DNA from: an uncultured Algibacter sp.
GTDB taxonomy: Bacteria > Bacteroidota > Bacteroidia > Flavobacteriales > Flavobacteriaceae
Length of the DNA stretch: 36,187 nt
Direction of reading: 5' to 3'
NCBI GenBank assembly: GCA_937936645.1
Contig: CALHCQ010000145.1
Coordinates: forward strand, 1-36,187
In this document: positions 15,059 through 30,709 of the stretch, in pieces
Numbering within the stretch: position 1 is the first letter of the stretch
Layout of the letters: each line of letters starts with the position of its first letter
Program-made: the position numbers and the translations under genes
The notes under the pieces: model-generated
What the model saw: only the letters and a program-made list of their open reading frames with translations
Told to the model about the DNA's origin: nothing
The model's database searches: none

Positions 15059-15541
15059 TTAATTTGGTAAACCAAATGTTGCAGTTGGAGCAAAACCTCT
15101 TCTAGTATTAGTAGTAGTGGTATTCTCTATTACTTCTGGCTCTGTAGCAGTTCTAGTAACCACTGGATCACCACCTGTAGATCTAACATTAATACTCCCT
15201 GTAGAACGACGTATGTTTGTTGTTCTCGTTCTTCTTACTTCATTTTCAGGAACGTTATTTAATTCTGGAATATTAAATGATCTTCTTATGGCTCCAGATC
15301 CGTTTACACCACATTGTGCTATAAAACGATCTCCGTTAAAATCTACATTGTCTAAAATCTCCCCAGATCTACGATCTACAATATTAGCAGATGCACCTCC
15401 GTCTATATAAACAACGCGTACAAAACCATCATAATTTCTTGTAAAAGAATCTTGAGAAGATGTAAATGTACATTCAGATTGTTGTGCATTAACTGCAGAT
15501 GTGATTGCTAAAGCTGCAATCATGGTCATTAAAATTTTCAT
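15059..15541 (-). CDS. Small secreted protein, paralogue A (unknown function)
   Basis: 160 aa; signal peptide MKILMTMIAALAITSAVNAQQ; body NIVDRRSGEILDNVDFNGDRF; C-terminal tail RRGFAPTATFGLPN shared with paralogue B. Confidence 0.8.
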   Translation of the reverse strand: MKILMTMIAALAITSAVNAQQSECTFTSSQDSFTRNYDGFVRVVYIDGGASANIVDRRSGEILDNVDFNGDRFIAQCGVNGSGAIRRSFNIPELNNVPENEVRRTRTTNIRRSTGSINVRSTGGDPVVTRTATEPEVIENTTTTNTRRGFAPTATFGLPN

Positions 15542-15787: not shown

Positions 15788-16258
15788 TTAGTTTGGTAAA
15801 CCAAACGTTGCTGTTGGAGAAAAACCACGTCTTGGAGAACTTACTGTTACTCTTCCTCCTGTATCTGTAGTATTTGTAGTAATTTCAGATCCTGGAGCAG
15901 ATTCAGAAACATCTACACTTACTGTACTAACATTAGGAGCTGCAGGTGCAGTTACCTCTGGAGTTGGTGCTGGTGCTATTGGAGCTGGTGCTGGTGCTGC
16001 TGGACGAGCGCTTCTTCCTGCTATACGACAACGTACACCAAATCTAGTTCCTTCAATTTCAACTGTATCAAGAATTTCTCCTGTTCTACGGTTTACTACA
16101 TTTACTGCATCTTGTCCTGGTAGGTTAACAATTCTTGCTAAACCATCAAAAGTACGTACTACAGACTCTCCGTCAGTTGTAAAAGTACATTCTGTTTGTT
16201 GTGCGCTTGCCGCAGATGTGATTGCTAAAGCCGCAACCATTGTCATTAAAATTTTCAT
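15788..16258 (-). CDS. Small secreted protein, paralogue B (unknown function)
   Basis: 156 aa; signal peptide MKILMTMVAALAITSAASAQQ; NVVNRRTGEILDTVEIEGTRF; Ala/Pro-rich linker; tail RRGFSPTATFGLPN. Confidence 0.8.
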   Translation of the reverse strand: MKILMTMVAALAITSAASAQQTECTFTTDGESVVRTFDGLARIVNLPGQDAVNVVNRRTGEILDTVEIEGTRFGVRCRIAGRSARPAAPAPAPIAPAPTPEVTAPAAPNVSTVSVDVSESAPGSEITTNTTDTGGRVTVSSPRRGFSPTATFGLPN

Positions 16259-21844: not shown

Positions 21845-22897
21845 TTATTCTTGGTTATTCGCTTTTTCTAGGGTGAAAGAGAATTCGCTTCCTACGTCGT
21901 ATTCGCTTTCTACGTAAATTTTTTCGTTATGTGCTTCTATGATATGTTTTACAATGGATAAGCCTAAACCAGAGCCTCCTTCTTGACGTGAGCCACTTTT
22001 GTCTACACGATAGAAACGCTCGAATAGTCGTGGTAGGTTGTCTTCTTCTAAGCCCTCGCCATTGTCGGTTACACGTACGATAACTTTGTTTTTTATTAGG
22101 TTTTCTACGCTTACCTCTGTAGTGCCTTTTTCGCGGCCGTATTTTATGGAATTAATAATTAGATTGGCTAGGACTTGTTGTATGCGTTCTATGTCGGCTT
22201 TTACAAATATTGGGGTGCTGTACTCGGTATCTAGGGTTAGTGTTATTTTTTTCTTGTTGGCACGCATTTCTACGGTTTCGAACACGTTTTTTACAAGTTT
22301 TACGATATCGAATGTTTCTATATTTAGGCTTAAATCGCCTACTTCTAGTTTGGTAATCATATCTAAATCGTTTACTATAAAGCTTAAGCGCTCTACGCCT
22401 TCGCTGGCACGTTTTAAATATTTTTCGCGTATGTTTTTATCGTTCATAGCGCCATCTAGAAGGGTTAAAATGTAACCTTGTATGGTAAATAAGGGGGTTT
22501 TTAACTCGTGAGATACGTTACCTAAAAACTCTTTACGGTATTGTTCACGCACTTTTAATGTTTCTATTTCTAGCTTTTTATTTCTGGCAAATTTATCGAT
22601 CTCTTCGGTTAGCGTTGCCATATCGGTGGTTACGGGCTTACTTACTAAACTGGTGTTTTCGAGCAGTGTTATGTCGTCGTATATTTTTTTTACTTGTTTG
22701 TAAATGTATCGTTCTGCCCGGTATTGTATAACTATAAAACAGAAACTGTAAAAACAAACAATGAATAATAGAATTGGTAATATTTTAAAACTGTAAAATA
22801 CAGTTAAAAAAACACTCATAAATAGTGTTGTAAATAGGGTGATATAAAATGATGTTTTTACAGCAAATTTATAGGTCTTCTTTAACTCTACCTCCAT
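21845..22897 (-). CDS. Sensor histidine kinase (PhoR-like)
   Basis: 350 aa; two TM segments; GNVSHELKTPLFTIQGY (H-box), NLIINSIKYG (N), VRVTDNGEGLEEDNLPRLFERFYRVDKS, GGSGLGLSIVKHI. Confidence 0.95.
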   Translation of the reverse strand: MEVELKKTYKFAVKTSFYITLFTTLFMSVFLTVFYSFKILPILLFIVCFYSFCFIVIQYRAERYIYKQVKKIYDDITLLENTSLVSKPVTTDMATLTEEIDKFARNKKLEIETLKVREQYRKEFLGNVSHELKTPLFTIQGYILTLLDGAMNDKNIREKYLKRASEGVERLSFIVNDLDMITKLEVGDLSLNIETFDIVKLVKNVFETVEMRANKKKITLTLDTEYSTPIFVKADIERIQQVLANLIINSIKYGREKGTTEVSVENLIKNKVIVRVTDNGEGLEEDNLPRLFERFYRVDKSGSRQEGGSGLGLSIVKHIIEAHNEKIYVESEYDVGSEFSFTLEKANNQE

Positions 22898-23574
22898 TAG
22901 TCTACAAATTTATAACCTACACCTTTTACGGTTTTAAAACTTTTATCGCCTATTTTCTCTCTTAGTTTACGTATGTGTACATCTATGGTTCTACCGCCTA
23001 CTACAACCTCGTTACCCCATACTTTGTCTAGTATTTCGTCTCGCTTAAATACTTTTCCTGGCTTAGAGGTTAGTAAGGATAATAGTTCGAATTCTTTACG
23101 TGGTAAAATAATTTCGTTACCTTCTAGTATAATTTTATACTCGTCTCGGTTTATTATAAGGTTTCCTACTTTTACGGTATCGCTCTCTTCTTCTTTAAAG
23201 CGTCTTAAAAGTGCTTTCACTTTACTTACTAAAACTTTAGGTTTTATGGGTTTTGTTATGTAATCGTCGGCACCTGCATCGAACCCTGCTACTTGCGAAT
23301 AATCTTCGCCACGAGCTGTTAAAAATGTAATTACAACATCGCTTAATTCTGGTGTTTTTCTAATAAGTTCGCAGGCTTCTATACCATCCATTTCTGGCAT
23401 CATAACATCTAATATAATGAGCTGCGGTAATTCTTTTTTCGCCTTTTTTACAGCTTCCAAACCATTTTGTGCTGTAACAACTTGATACCCTGCTTGTGTT
23501 AAATTATAACCTACTATTTCTAAAATATCTGGCTCGTCATCAACTAAAAGGATTTTTATGTCTTTTTTATTCAT
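22897..23574 (-). CDS. OmpR/PhoB-family response regulator (start revised to ATG at 23574)
   Basis: MNKKDIKILLVDDEPDILEIV, LDVMMPEMDG, winged-helix VVGGRTIDVHIRKLREKIG; ORF-track extension to 23664 lies in low-complexity upstream sequence. Confidence 0.95.
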   Translation of the reverse strand: MNKKDIKILLVDDEPDILEIVGYNLTQAGYQVVTAQNGLEAVKKAKKELPQLIILDVMMPEMDGIEACELIRKTPELSDVVITFLTARGEDYSQVAGFDAGADDYITKPIKPKVLVSKVKALLRRFKEEESDTVKVGNLIINRDEYKIILEGNEIILPRKEFELLSLLTSKPGKVFKRDEILDKVWGNEVVVGGRTIDVHIRKLREKIGDKSFKTVKGVGYKFVD

Positions 23575-23730
23575 TATCAAATTGGTTTGGTTATTTTGAT
23601 AAATATAAAGCTTCTTATATAATTTTATTAAATAATAATAACATATAACATTATAATAACACACAAATTACAACAGGGTAACGTTATGCTAAATCTAATT
23701 TAACTTAAAAAGAATTTTGGTATAAACTTT

Positions 23731-23744
23731 GTTGTTATAACAAC
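23731..23744. promoter_or_regulatory. 14-bp perfect palindrome GTTGTTATAACAAC
   Basis: Self-complementary; between the response regulator start and the T9SS mini-gene. Confidence 0.4.
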
Positions 23745-23763: not shown

Positions 23764-24106
23764 ATGCTAAAAAAATACGCCATAGGGAGTTTTTGTGCTT
23801 TGTTGTTTTTATTATCTGTAAATACCAGCGCTCAAAACAAGTTTTACAAACACCCCTAAACATAAGGATTCTAAAGATTTACTTATTTATCCTAACCCTG
23901 TTAATATTACAAACCCTTACTTATACATAACTTCTGCAAGTAATGAAGATAAACATGTCGTGATTTATAATGTTTTGGGCAACAAAGAGCTCGAAATAAT
24001 TTTAAGAAATAATAAGTTAAACATATCGCGACTTGTAAAAGGTGTTTATATTTTAAAAGTTGAAGAATCTGATCGTTTTGAAACTCGAAAATTAATTGTT
24101 AAATAA
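23764..24106 (+). pseudogene. Frameshifted small T9SS type A sorting-domain protein (signal peptide plus CTD only)
   Basis: Frame 1: MLKKYAIGSFCALLFLLSVNTSAQNKFYKHP* (23764-23859). +1 frame: HKDSKDLLIYPNPVNITNPYLYITSASNEDKHVVIYNVLGNKELEIILRNNKLNISRLVKGVYILKVEESDRFETRKLIVK* (23861-24106). The second part has type A CTD motifs; deleting one T of 23842-23845 restores one frame. Confidence 0.8.
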
Positions 24107-24204: not shown

Positions 24205-25185
24205 ATGATTGATACTAACCGTATTTTTAATATTAGAAACCAAGACCAGTTTAATACATTAGCGCTACAGGTATTTAATTATCAGTTTAAACATAATAGC
24301 ACATATCGTTCGTTTTGCGATTTACTTTACAAGCATCCTAGCGATGTAAAAACCATTAAGGACATTCCTTTTTTACCTATTCAATTTTTTAAAAGCCATA
24401 CTGTTTTAAGCGATACAAAAGCTGTAGAAACTATTTTCTCAAGTTCTGGAACTACCGGAACAACAACCAGTAAGCACCATGTTACTAATTTAAATATTTA
24501 CAAAGACAGCTTTAGGCTAGGGTTTAAACAATTTTATGGTGACATAGAAGACTACACCATACTTGCCTTATTACCTGCTTATCTAGAACGCAAAGGCTCG
24601 TCTTTAGTTTATATGGTTAATGATATGATTTCGCAATCTAAACATAAGGAAAGTGGCTTTTATCTTGACAACTTAACAGAGTTAGTAAACAAACTTATTA
24701 CACTTGATAAACAAGATAAAAAAGTCCTACTTATTGGAGTCTCCTTTGCACTTTTAGACCTTATTGATTTACATCAATTTAATTTAAAAAACACCATAAT
24801 AATGGAAACTGGTGGCATGAAAGGTCGAAGAAAAGAACTTATAAGAACAGATCTTCATGAGCAACTAAAACAGGGGTTTGGTGTAAACACAATACACAGC
24901 GAGTATGGTATGACAGAGCTTTTAAGCCAGGGTTACTCTAACGGTAATGGTGTTTTTAAATGCCCAAGTTGGATGCAGGTTTTAACACGAGACACTCAAG
25001 ACCCGCTAACAATACTAGAGCAAGAAAAATCTGGAGGTGTTAATATTATTGATCTAGCCAATATTAACTCTTGTTCTTTTATTGCCACTCAAGACTTAGG
25101 ACGTGTTTATAAAGATGGTACTTTTGAAATTATAGGGCGCTTCGACAACTCGGATATTCGCGGCTGCAATCTTATGGTTTTTTAG
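24205..25185 (+). CDS. LuxE/PaaK-like acyl-protein synthetase / acyl transferase
   Basis: 326 aa; IFSSSGTTGTTTSKHHV, YLERKGSSLVYMVNDMI, HSEYGMTELLSQGYS. Confidence 0.8.
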   Translation: MIDTNRIFNIRNQDQFNTLALQVFNYQFKHNSTYRSFCDLLYKHPSDVKTIKDIPFLPIQFFKSHTVLSDTKAVETIFSSSGTTGTTTSKHHVTNLNIYKDSFRLGFKQFYGDIEDYTILALLPAYLERKGSSLVYMVNDMISQSKHKESGFYLDNLTELVNKLITLDKQDKKVLLIGVSFALLDLIDLHQFNLKNTIIMETGGMKGRRKELIRTDLHEQLKQGFGVNTIHSEYGMTELLSQGYSNGNGVFKCPSWMQVLTRDTQDPLTILEQEKSGGVNIIDLANINSCSFIATQDLGRVYKDGTFEIIGRFDNSDIRGCNLMVF

Positions 25186-28631: not shown

Positions 28632-29978
28632 TTATCTGTTAAATGTTAATCGTTTAGCAGCTTTAATATCGTAAAATTTAAAGTTTTTATATGCTAAACT
28701 TCCGTTTATAAATGTATGTGTTATTCTAGATTTAAATGTTGTTCCCTCGAAAGGCGACCAACCACATTTATATAAAATATTATCTTTATTTACCGTCCAT
28801 GGGTTATTTAAATCTACCATAACCAAATCGGCAAAATAACCTTCTTTAATATACCCTCTTTTTTCTACTTGAAATAAAATAGCTGGGTTGTGGCACATTT
28901 TTTCGACTACTTTTTCTATAGAAATTTTACCTCGGTGATGCATTTCTAACATGGCAGGTAAGGCATGCTGTACTAATGGCCCTCCTGATGGCGCACTTGT
29001 GTAAACGTTTTTCTTTTCTTCTAAAGTATGTGGCGCGTGGTCTGTGGCAATAACATCTATTCTGCCATCTAACAAAGCCTCCCATAAACCATCTTGGTCT
29101 TTTTGAGTTTTTACTGCAGGATTCCACTTTATAAAGGTACCTTTATCTTTATAATCTTTATCAGAAAACCATAGGTGATGCACACACACCTCGGCTGTTA
29201 TTTTTTTATCTTTTAAAGGTATCTTATTGGTAAACAAACTTGTTTCTTTTGCTGTAGACAAGTGAAAAACATGTAAACGCGCTCCTGTTTTCTTGGCCAG
29301 CGCAATAGCTTTAGATGACGACAAATAACAAGCTTCCTCATTTCTAATAATGGGATGACACGCTACAGGAATATCGTCGCCATAAGTATCTAAATGTTCT
29401 TGAAAATTTTTCTTTATAGTTGCTTCGTCTTCACAGTGTACAGAAATAACCATGTTGGTGCTTTTAAATATTTCTTCTAACACCTCTGGATCGTCTACCA
29501 ACATATTACCCGTTGATGAACCTAAAAATAATTTTAAACCCGCAACAGCATTTTCGTCTACCTTTAAAATTTCTTCTAAATTATCGTTAGTACCCCCAAA
29601 CATAAAAGAGTAGTTTGCATAAGATGTTTTCTCTGCAATACTAAATTTCTCCTCCAGCTTTTCTATAGTTGTTGCTTGTGGTTTTGTGTTTGGCATTTCT
29701 ATAAACGAGGTAATACCTCCTGCAACAGCCGCTCTAGATTCGGTCTCGATGTTAGCTTTATGTGTTAGGCCAGGTTCTCTAAAATGTACTTGATCATCAA
29801 TAGCGCCAGGTAAAACATATTTACCTTCTGCATCGTAAATATGCACATCTGCAGATTTAGCACTTATAGAACTACTAATTTCTTTAATATACTCGCCTTC
29901 TATTAAAATATCGCCGTTAAAAATAACGCCTTCGTTAACAATATTAGCATTCTTTATAAGTATTGTTTTTTGATTCAT
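28632..29978 (-). CDS. pyrC: Dihydroorotase
   Basis: 448 aa; VLPGAIDDQVHFREPGLTHKANIETESRAAVAGGITSFIEMPNT, VHCEDE, HVFHLSTA, DVIATDHAPHT. Confidence 0.92.
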   Translation of the reverse strand: MNQKTILIKNANIVNEGVIFNGDILIEGEYIKEISSSISAKSADVHIYDAEGKYVLPGAIDDQVHFREPGLTHKANIETESRAAVAGGITSFIEMPNTKPQATTIEKLEEKFSIAEKTSYANYSFMFGGTNDNLEEILKVDENAVAGLKLFLGSSTGNMLVDDPEVLEEIFKSTNMVISVHCEDEATIKKNFQEHLDTYGDDIPVACHPIIRNEEACYLSSSKAIALAKKTGARLHVFHLSTAKETSLFTNKIPLKDKKITAEVCVHHLWFSDKDYKDKGTFIKWNPAVKTQKDQDGLWEALLDGRIDVIATDHAPHTLEEKKNVYTSAPSGGPLVQHALPAMLEMHHRGKISIEKVVEKMCHNPAILFQVEKRGYIKEGYFADLVMVDLNNPWTVNKDNILYKCGWSPFEGTTFKSRITHTFINGSLAYKNFKFYDIKAAKRLTFNR

Positions 29979-29986
29979 CTTGCACT

Positions 29987-30709
29987 TTATTTTTTGAATA
30001 TACTATTTATTTTCATGGAAACAACTCCCAATATGGCTTCGGATATAATACCTGAGCTTAACTTAGACTCTCCCTTTGTTCGGTCTGTAAAAATAACAGG
30101 AACCTCTATAATATTTAACTTTTTTAAATAGGTTTTAAATTTCATTTCTATTTGAAAAGCATACCCTATAAATTTTATCTTATTTAAGTTTAATGCTTCT
30201 AACGTACTACGCTTGTAGCAAACAAAACCAGCTGTGGTATCGTGTATTTTCATACCCGTTATTAAACGCACATATTTAGAGGCTAAGTAAGACATAAGCA
30301 CTCTATTCATGGGCCAATTAACAACATTAACACCTGTTACATATCGCGATCCTATAGATAAATCGGCTTGTTTTAAACTACAAGCTTCATATAATTTTAT
30401 AAGATCTTTTGGATTATGAGAAAAATCTGCATCCATCTCAAATATATATTGATATGTTTTACTTAAACACCATTTAAAACCATGTATGTAGGCTGTACCT
30501 AAACCAGATTTAGAATTTCTAACTTCTAAAAACAATCTGTTTTTATATTTTTCTTGCAACACCCTTACTTGGTTAGCTGTTAAATCTGGAGAATTATCAT
30601 CGACCACTAAAACATGAATATCACGCGATTGCTCAAAAACAGCTTCTATAATAGATACTATATTTTCTATCTCGTTATATGTCGGTATAATTACAACAGC
30701 ATCTTTCAT
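29987..30709 (-). CDS. Polyprenol monophosphomannose synthase-like GT2 glycosyltransferase
   Basis: 240 aa; VIIPTYNEIENI, VLVVDDNSPD, MDADFSHNP, SIGSRYV, TTAGFVCYKR. Confidence 0.9.
   Translation of the reverse strand: MKDAVVIIPTYNEIENIVSIIEAVFEQSRDIHVLVVDDNSPDLTANQVRVLQEKYKNRLFLEVRNSKSGLGTAYIHGFKWCLSKTYQYIFEMDADFSHNPKDLIKLYEACSLKQADLSIGSRYVTGVNVVNWPMNRVLMSYLASKYVRLITGMKIHDTTAGFVCYKRSTLEALNLNKIKFIGYAFQIEMKFKTYLKKLNIIEVPVIFTDRTKGESKLSSGIISEAILGVVSMKINSIFKK

Follow-up and report, generated by a model that had tools for sequence, protein, structure and literature searches.

A split copy of a passenger-less T9SS sorting-domain gene in an uncultured Algibacter, and its intact relatives in the Flavobacteriaceae

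The window, by which we mean the whole stretch of 36,187 nucleotides of contig CALHCQ010000145.1 that was analysed, contains a broken copy of a gene for a small exported protein of the Fjoh_0547 type, which as assembled is not a working member of its family. The copy lies in the slot that is usual for these genes, has the size of a gene without passenger and keeps the upstream elements of its relatives, but it is not read in a single open frame. Hundreds of related bacteria have the same mini-protein in unbroken form. We think that the frameshift is in itself an ordinary event, and that the conserved passenger-less protein behind the broken copy matters more. The features of the locus are given below, in window coordinates.

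21845..22897 (-): sensor histidine kinase, PhoR/PnpS-like (PF00512 and PF02518), a conserved neighbour
22897..23577 (-): divergent response regulator of the OmpR/PhoB type (PF00072 and PF00486), a conserved neighbour
23646..23660 (no strand assigned): TAAC-N7-TAAC, an 11-bp direct repeat at -118, possible site of the divergent PhoB-like regulator
23717..23731 (+): TTGG-N8-TTG, a sigma-54-type -24/-12 element 47 bases 5' of the ATG, shared with orthologues
23764..23859 (+): frame 1, with ATG 23764, a signal peptide ending SVNTSAQ, seven more residues and TAA (by translation)
23834..23859 (+): junction interval, with a one-base frame change somewhere inside and three four-base runs (by translation)
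23860..24106 (+): frame 2, T9SS type A sorting domain (PF18962, TIGR04183), then a stop
24205..25185 (+): LuxE-like acyl-protein synthetase family gene, the conserved downstream neighbour (PF04443, 53.7 bits; synteny)

Reading frames and junction in the window

Translation from ATG 23764 yields 31 codons, MLKKYAIGSFCALLFLLSVNTSAQNKFYKHP, closed by the TAA at 23857-23859; the signal peptide was compared by eye with those of 30 intact orthologues. The +1 frame is open until the TAA at 24104-24106 and contains ...DLLIYPNPVNITNPYLYITSASNEDKHVVIYNVLGNKELEIILRNNKLNISRLVKGVYILKVEESDRFETRKLIVK, and the sorting domain in it has neither stops nor indels. This domain matches the profiles PF18962 (44.8 bits, cut-off 27) and TIGR04183 (49.2 bits, cut-off 23) over their full length, and because both scores are well above the cut-offs the match is not due to chance. 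In a search of the whole window genome it extended over 23885-24100. No ATG, GTG or TTG was found ahead of the domain in frame 2, so this frame is unable to start independently, and its separate translation was ruled out. As assembled, the sorting domain is out of frame with the signal peptide, so it is not the C-terminus of an exported protein. The gene measures 343 nt, which is the modal length of the orthologues (113 codons and a stop) plus one base.

A preliminary description of this DNA had recognized a signal-peptide frame followed by a sorting domain one base out of frame, a reading that translation and the two profile matches bear out. It had also proposed a passenger-less protein composed of signal peptide, linker and type A domain, the very make-up of the intact orthologues, and its estimate of about 113 residues for the restored protein fits the length of the gene. 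Its placing of the indel in the TTTT run cannot be kept. The interval contains three runs of four bases (AAAA 23834-23837, TTTT 23842-23845 and CCCC 23853-23856) and none longer, and the linker between signal peptide and domain is not conserved in the alignment of the 30 intact copies; for these two reasons the inserted base is not assignable to a position.

The assembly to which the window belongs (G000) is 2.0 Mb long and 76.9% complete, and the window is one of its 187 contigs. This genome contains an intact SprA and 17 sorting domains over the Pfam cut-off, by which loss of the T9SS was ruled out as the cause of the lesion. No further mini-protein was found in this assembly, and a genus search, which gave 2 genomes, returned no second genome of the species. 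Homologous ORFs cover 12.3 kb of the window, and within this part there are no other split genes, the one multi-piece match (29794-30122) being an antisense ORF that spans a gene boundary. Elsewhere in the window, positions 77-209 and 485-617 are the two copies of a direct repeat, 133 nt long and 99% identical, and in each lies a minus-strand tRNA-Asp gene (79-153 and 487-561). Antisense over these run the ORFs 58-258 and 400-675 (WTGLEPATFAVTGRHSNQLNYQT...) of the plus strand, which are probably spurious. Moreover, two adjacent paralogous genes at 15059-15541 and 15788-16258 (-) encode small exported proteins beginning MKILMTM.AALAITSA..AQQ... and sharing the ending RRGF.PTATFGLPN.

The intact family, its promoter elements and its neighbours

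Intact orthologues at the same locus, which the preliminary description had thought worth looking for, were found by protein search in many genera and with nearly the same length. The search of 60 relatives gave ORFs about 110-130 residues long, at 40-50% identity. When named genomes were scanned with the LuxE-like protein, 80 loci were obtained, and 30 of these have an intact mini-gene of 108-115 residues (mode 113); the alignment of these 30 copies has 11 invariant columns, all within the sorting domain. This is also the sole domain that Pfam finds in two intact orthologues. Intact proteins of 102-117 residues, formed by signal peptide, short linker and sorting domain alone, are widespread in the Flavobacteriaceae and usually occupy the same slot. 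In a survey of 400 Flavobacteriaceae genomes, more than 140 mini-type proteins stand among the matches listed, with an internal stop in the window copy alone, and in a survey of 300 Flavobacterium genomes a match was obtained in 295, with no internal stop among the approximately 150 mini-genes listed; both surveys list the best-scoring matches, and a decayed copy that scored weakly may have escaped them. Since intact passenger-less orthologues are so widespread, and mostly in the same slot, the Fjoh_0547-type protein is, to judge from these genomes, a real, conserved, passenger-less protein and not a deletion remnant. Tandem pairs of differing mini-proteins, of about 102-103 and 107-111 residues, were observed beside the LuxE-like gene in several genera, at loci L009, L011, L016, L019 and L175.

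The mini-gene has promoter elements of its own. The TTGG-N8-TTG element is present in 29 of the 31 mini-gene upstream regions, when 0.8% would be expected under the null, and in none of 79 LuxE upstream regions or of the 31 reverse strands. The TAAC-N7-TAAC repeat also appears in 29 of the 31 (1.8% expected under the null) and in one of the 79 LuxE upstream regions. Both are retained in the window, where they stand at -47 and -118. The search for TTGG-N8-TTG had a positive control in dnaK, which is preceded by this element in 6 of the 7 genomes looked at, that of the window among them. The sigma-54 regulon of Flavobacterium psychrophilum (motif SM4) includes dnaK, other chaperones, Skp and a gliding operon, and the -24/-12 pattern of the mini-gene matches that upstream of the regulon gene dnaK in relatives; the mini-gene itself is not named in the printed table of this regulon (PMC9723704). 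We infer from the sequence that sigma-54 acts at the TTGG-N8-TTG element of the mini-gene. The repeat, which has the spacing of a PhoB box, is a possible target of the adjacent regulator.

RpoN is present in genomes G001 and G556 and was not found in that of the window. As this assembly is 77% complete and the sigma-54-type element of its dnaK is retained, rpoN is probably just missing from the assembly. Loss of RpoN was set aside as the cause of the lesion, given that dnaK of this genome keeps its element.

The order of genes in relatives is a divergent response regulator with its histidine kinase, the mini-gene and the LuxE-like gene, often with a tyrosyl-tRNA synthetase beyond. In the window, the response regulator scores 220.6 bits against the PhoB model, under the cut-off of 296.2, and the histidine kinase stays under every NCBIfam equivalog cut-off shown. 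The mini-gene is adjoined or replaced, in some genera, by a separate gene for a large sorting-domain protein of 250-900 residues with LTD, DUF5689 or CBM_4_9-like domains. Such cargo genes, of varying domain content, come and go between the mini-gene and the LuxE-like gene (L048, L057, L058, L086, L092, L119 and others), as if this slot were a site of cargo exchange. Searches with the LuxE-like gene found no relatives in viral contigs and spurious short matches alone in plasmids, that is, no trace of a mobile origin of the locus.

Origin of the split frame

The sorting domain in the window is the most diverged of the 31, with a leave-one-out score of 92 bits versus 108-137 for the others. In branch tests over about 74 codons, with third positions saturated, the protein branch of the window copy is 5.25 times its LuxE plus response regulator branch (0.13-3.0 in the 30 intact copies), and its change at first and second positions relative to third positions, 0.22, is exceeded by one copy alone, which has a very short third-position branch. 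Forty-two one-step mutations would create a stop in the domain, and the probability of its being stop-free is about 0.06 at 0.2 neutral substitutions per site and 0.004 at 0.4. A long decay is excluded on account of the open domain and the first of these values, and therefore either most of the excess change predates the frameshift or the frame is not truly lost. This agrees with the earlier view that any decay would be recent, the domain still being free of stops and indels. We consider it probable that a real and recent frameshift took place in the window lineage after constraint on the gene had loosened, and that the copy is a young pseudogene. The main rival is an error of assembly or consensus, in which case the organism would have an unbroken gene and the additional base would be a fault of the draft MAG. 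This is a tenable but less likely explanation. The assembly is incomplete and fragmented into 187 contigs, the domain and the promoter are preserved, and the total length is exactly one base away from the family mode, all of which would suit an artefact. Against it, short-read chemistry, if the assembly rests on it, seldom misreads runs of only four bases, no second split gene appeared in the homologue-covered parts of the window, and the unusually fast evolution of the copy is unexpected in an intact constrained gene. In addition, at another locus (L184, G033:C1 ~2010000-2011000) the second of two tandem mini-genes has a one-base frameshift within its sorting domain, next to an intact copy, in a genome that is one contig; real decay therefore occurs in this family. 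Both pseudogene and assembly error, which the preliminary description had placed side by side, are still standing, and the evidence leans towards a real lesion.

The other mechanisms put forward for the split fare worse. Programmed +1 frameshifting, in which the ribosome would slip before the stop (CAC CCC TAA) and make the full-length protein at a set rate, is very improbable in our opinion. Slippage of this kind is known at a proline CCC codon immediately preceding a stop, the slip would yield exactly the modal 113 residues and the second frame has no stop, but all listed relatives, including the genus neighbour, are read in a single frame, and the site is unconserved in a family of which the window copy is the most diverged member. 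Phase variation, in which a surface protein would be turned on and off by slipped-strand mispairing at a homopolymer, deserves slightly less credence still. The gene does encode an exported protein and has short runs at the junction, but tracts of four bases at most are too short for known contingency loci and the orthologues have no comparable tract. We give just as little weight to the idea that the locus is what a deletion left of a larger T9SS cargo gene. It draws on the sorting-domain proteins of 250-900 residues that occupy the same slot in some genera, and is contradicted by the intact mini-proteins that many genera have in this slot, with a signal peptide and little variation in length, by the mini and the large protein standing side by side at many loci, and by the promoter elements of the mini-gene, which are missing from 15 of 16 start regions of large cargo genes.

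Possible role and comparison with known systems

Genome G556 can be identified as F. johnsoniae UW101, because its SprA is identical to PDB 6h3i over the 1000 residues compared. Its mini-gene has 112 codons, lies at 583 kb with the same neighbours as the window locus, and is the sole sorting-domain ORF of such size in the region expected for locus 0547; the reference point for placing this locus was gldH, at 1006 kb, which we take to be Fjoh_0890. Length and map position thus argue strongly, if indirectly, that this gene is Fjoh_0547. In the same genome, at C1:2808494-2810474 (-), three more short ORFs, of 119-138 residues and weakly matching the sorting domain, form a cluster. Where it is mentioned in PMC7712824, citing Lauber et al., Fjoh_0547 appears as a 'small CTD-containing protein' of 112 residues that is reportedly secreted in sprA and porV mutants. 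Our literature search on passenger-less sorting domains found nothing beyond that article.

In the window lineage, the proposed course of events would begin with the net gain of one base between signal peptide and domain, by which translation would end after 31 codons and the domain would not be made; the product would be a signal peptide with seven residues and nothing more. In the intact relatives, the mini-gene would be transcribed from a sigma-54-type promoter, of a kind common to chaperone and envelope genes, beside a PhoR/PhoB-like pair. The mini-protein would be exported by Sec, fold as a lone sorting domain and reach the surface or the medium, with release either through the T9SS or, in the way that PMC7712824 reports for Fjoh_0547, without SprA and PorV. 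Such a lone domain could occupy PorV or the translocon, or could signal at the cell surface as PorA does in Porphyromonas gingivalis. We infer that the intact protein acts at the T9SS/PorV binding site, as its free occupant, its sensor or its decoy, and so reports or tunes the state of secretion and envelope, and the stress-type promoter together with the adjacent sensor pair makes a sensor or decoy of that state the most likely role. The fuller proposal, that the passenger-less domain of the Flavobacteriaceae is a dedicated reporter of or competitor for the T9SS, with sigma-54 control by envelope stress, SprA/PorV-independent exit and PhoR/PhoB-like coupling that signals secretion capacity, and that the window lineage is a natural loss of it, is speculative and, we think, rather unlikely as a whole.

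What the comparison offers is a Flavobacteriaceae-wide sorting domain without passenger, of near-constant length, with its own conserved promoter and constant neighbours. Fjoh_0547, otherwise uncharacterised apart from the SprA/PorV-independent release reported in PMC7712824, gains a genomic context and testable regulators. If the mini-protein reports on T9SS capacity or competes for it, it would be a PorA-like signal outside Porphyromonas.

PorA (PGN_0123) of P. gingivalis, which acts on PorXY-SigP, carries at its N-terminus a FimH-like domain of about 135 residues. The mini-protein differs from it in having no FimH-like domain, according to Pfam on two orthologues, with only a low-confidence linker in the structural model, and in having PhoR/PhoB-like neighbours. 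That model, calculated with AlphaFold2 for the orthologue at L060 from a 31-row alignment, has a mean pLDDT of 87; the sorting domain is well predicted, and the signal peptide and linker poorly. Its best solved match is the translocon-bound NucA sorting domain 8glk_D, with a TM-score of 0.84 by target length and 1.8 Å. Together with FspA (8glj) and RemA (8gl6), NucA (8glk) is one of the F. johnsoniae translocon sorting domains (PMC10994853), with which the mini-protein shares the fold, by model comparison, and the Pfam/NCBIfam family; those domains are the tails of large passengers, whereas the mini-protein has none. With Fjoh_0547 the likeness extends to the whole make-up of signal peptide, linker and type A sorting domain alone, from which the window copy differs by its frameshift.
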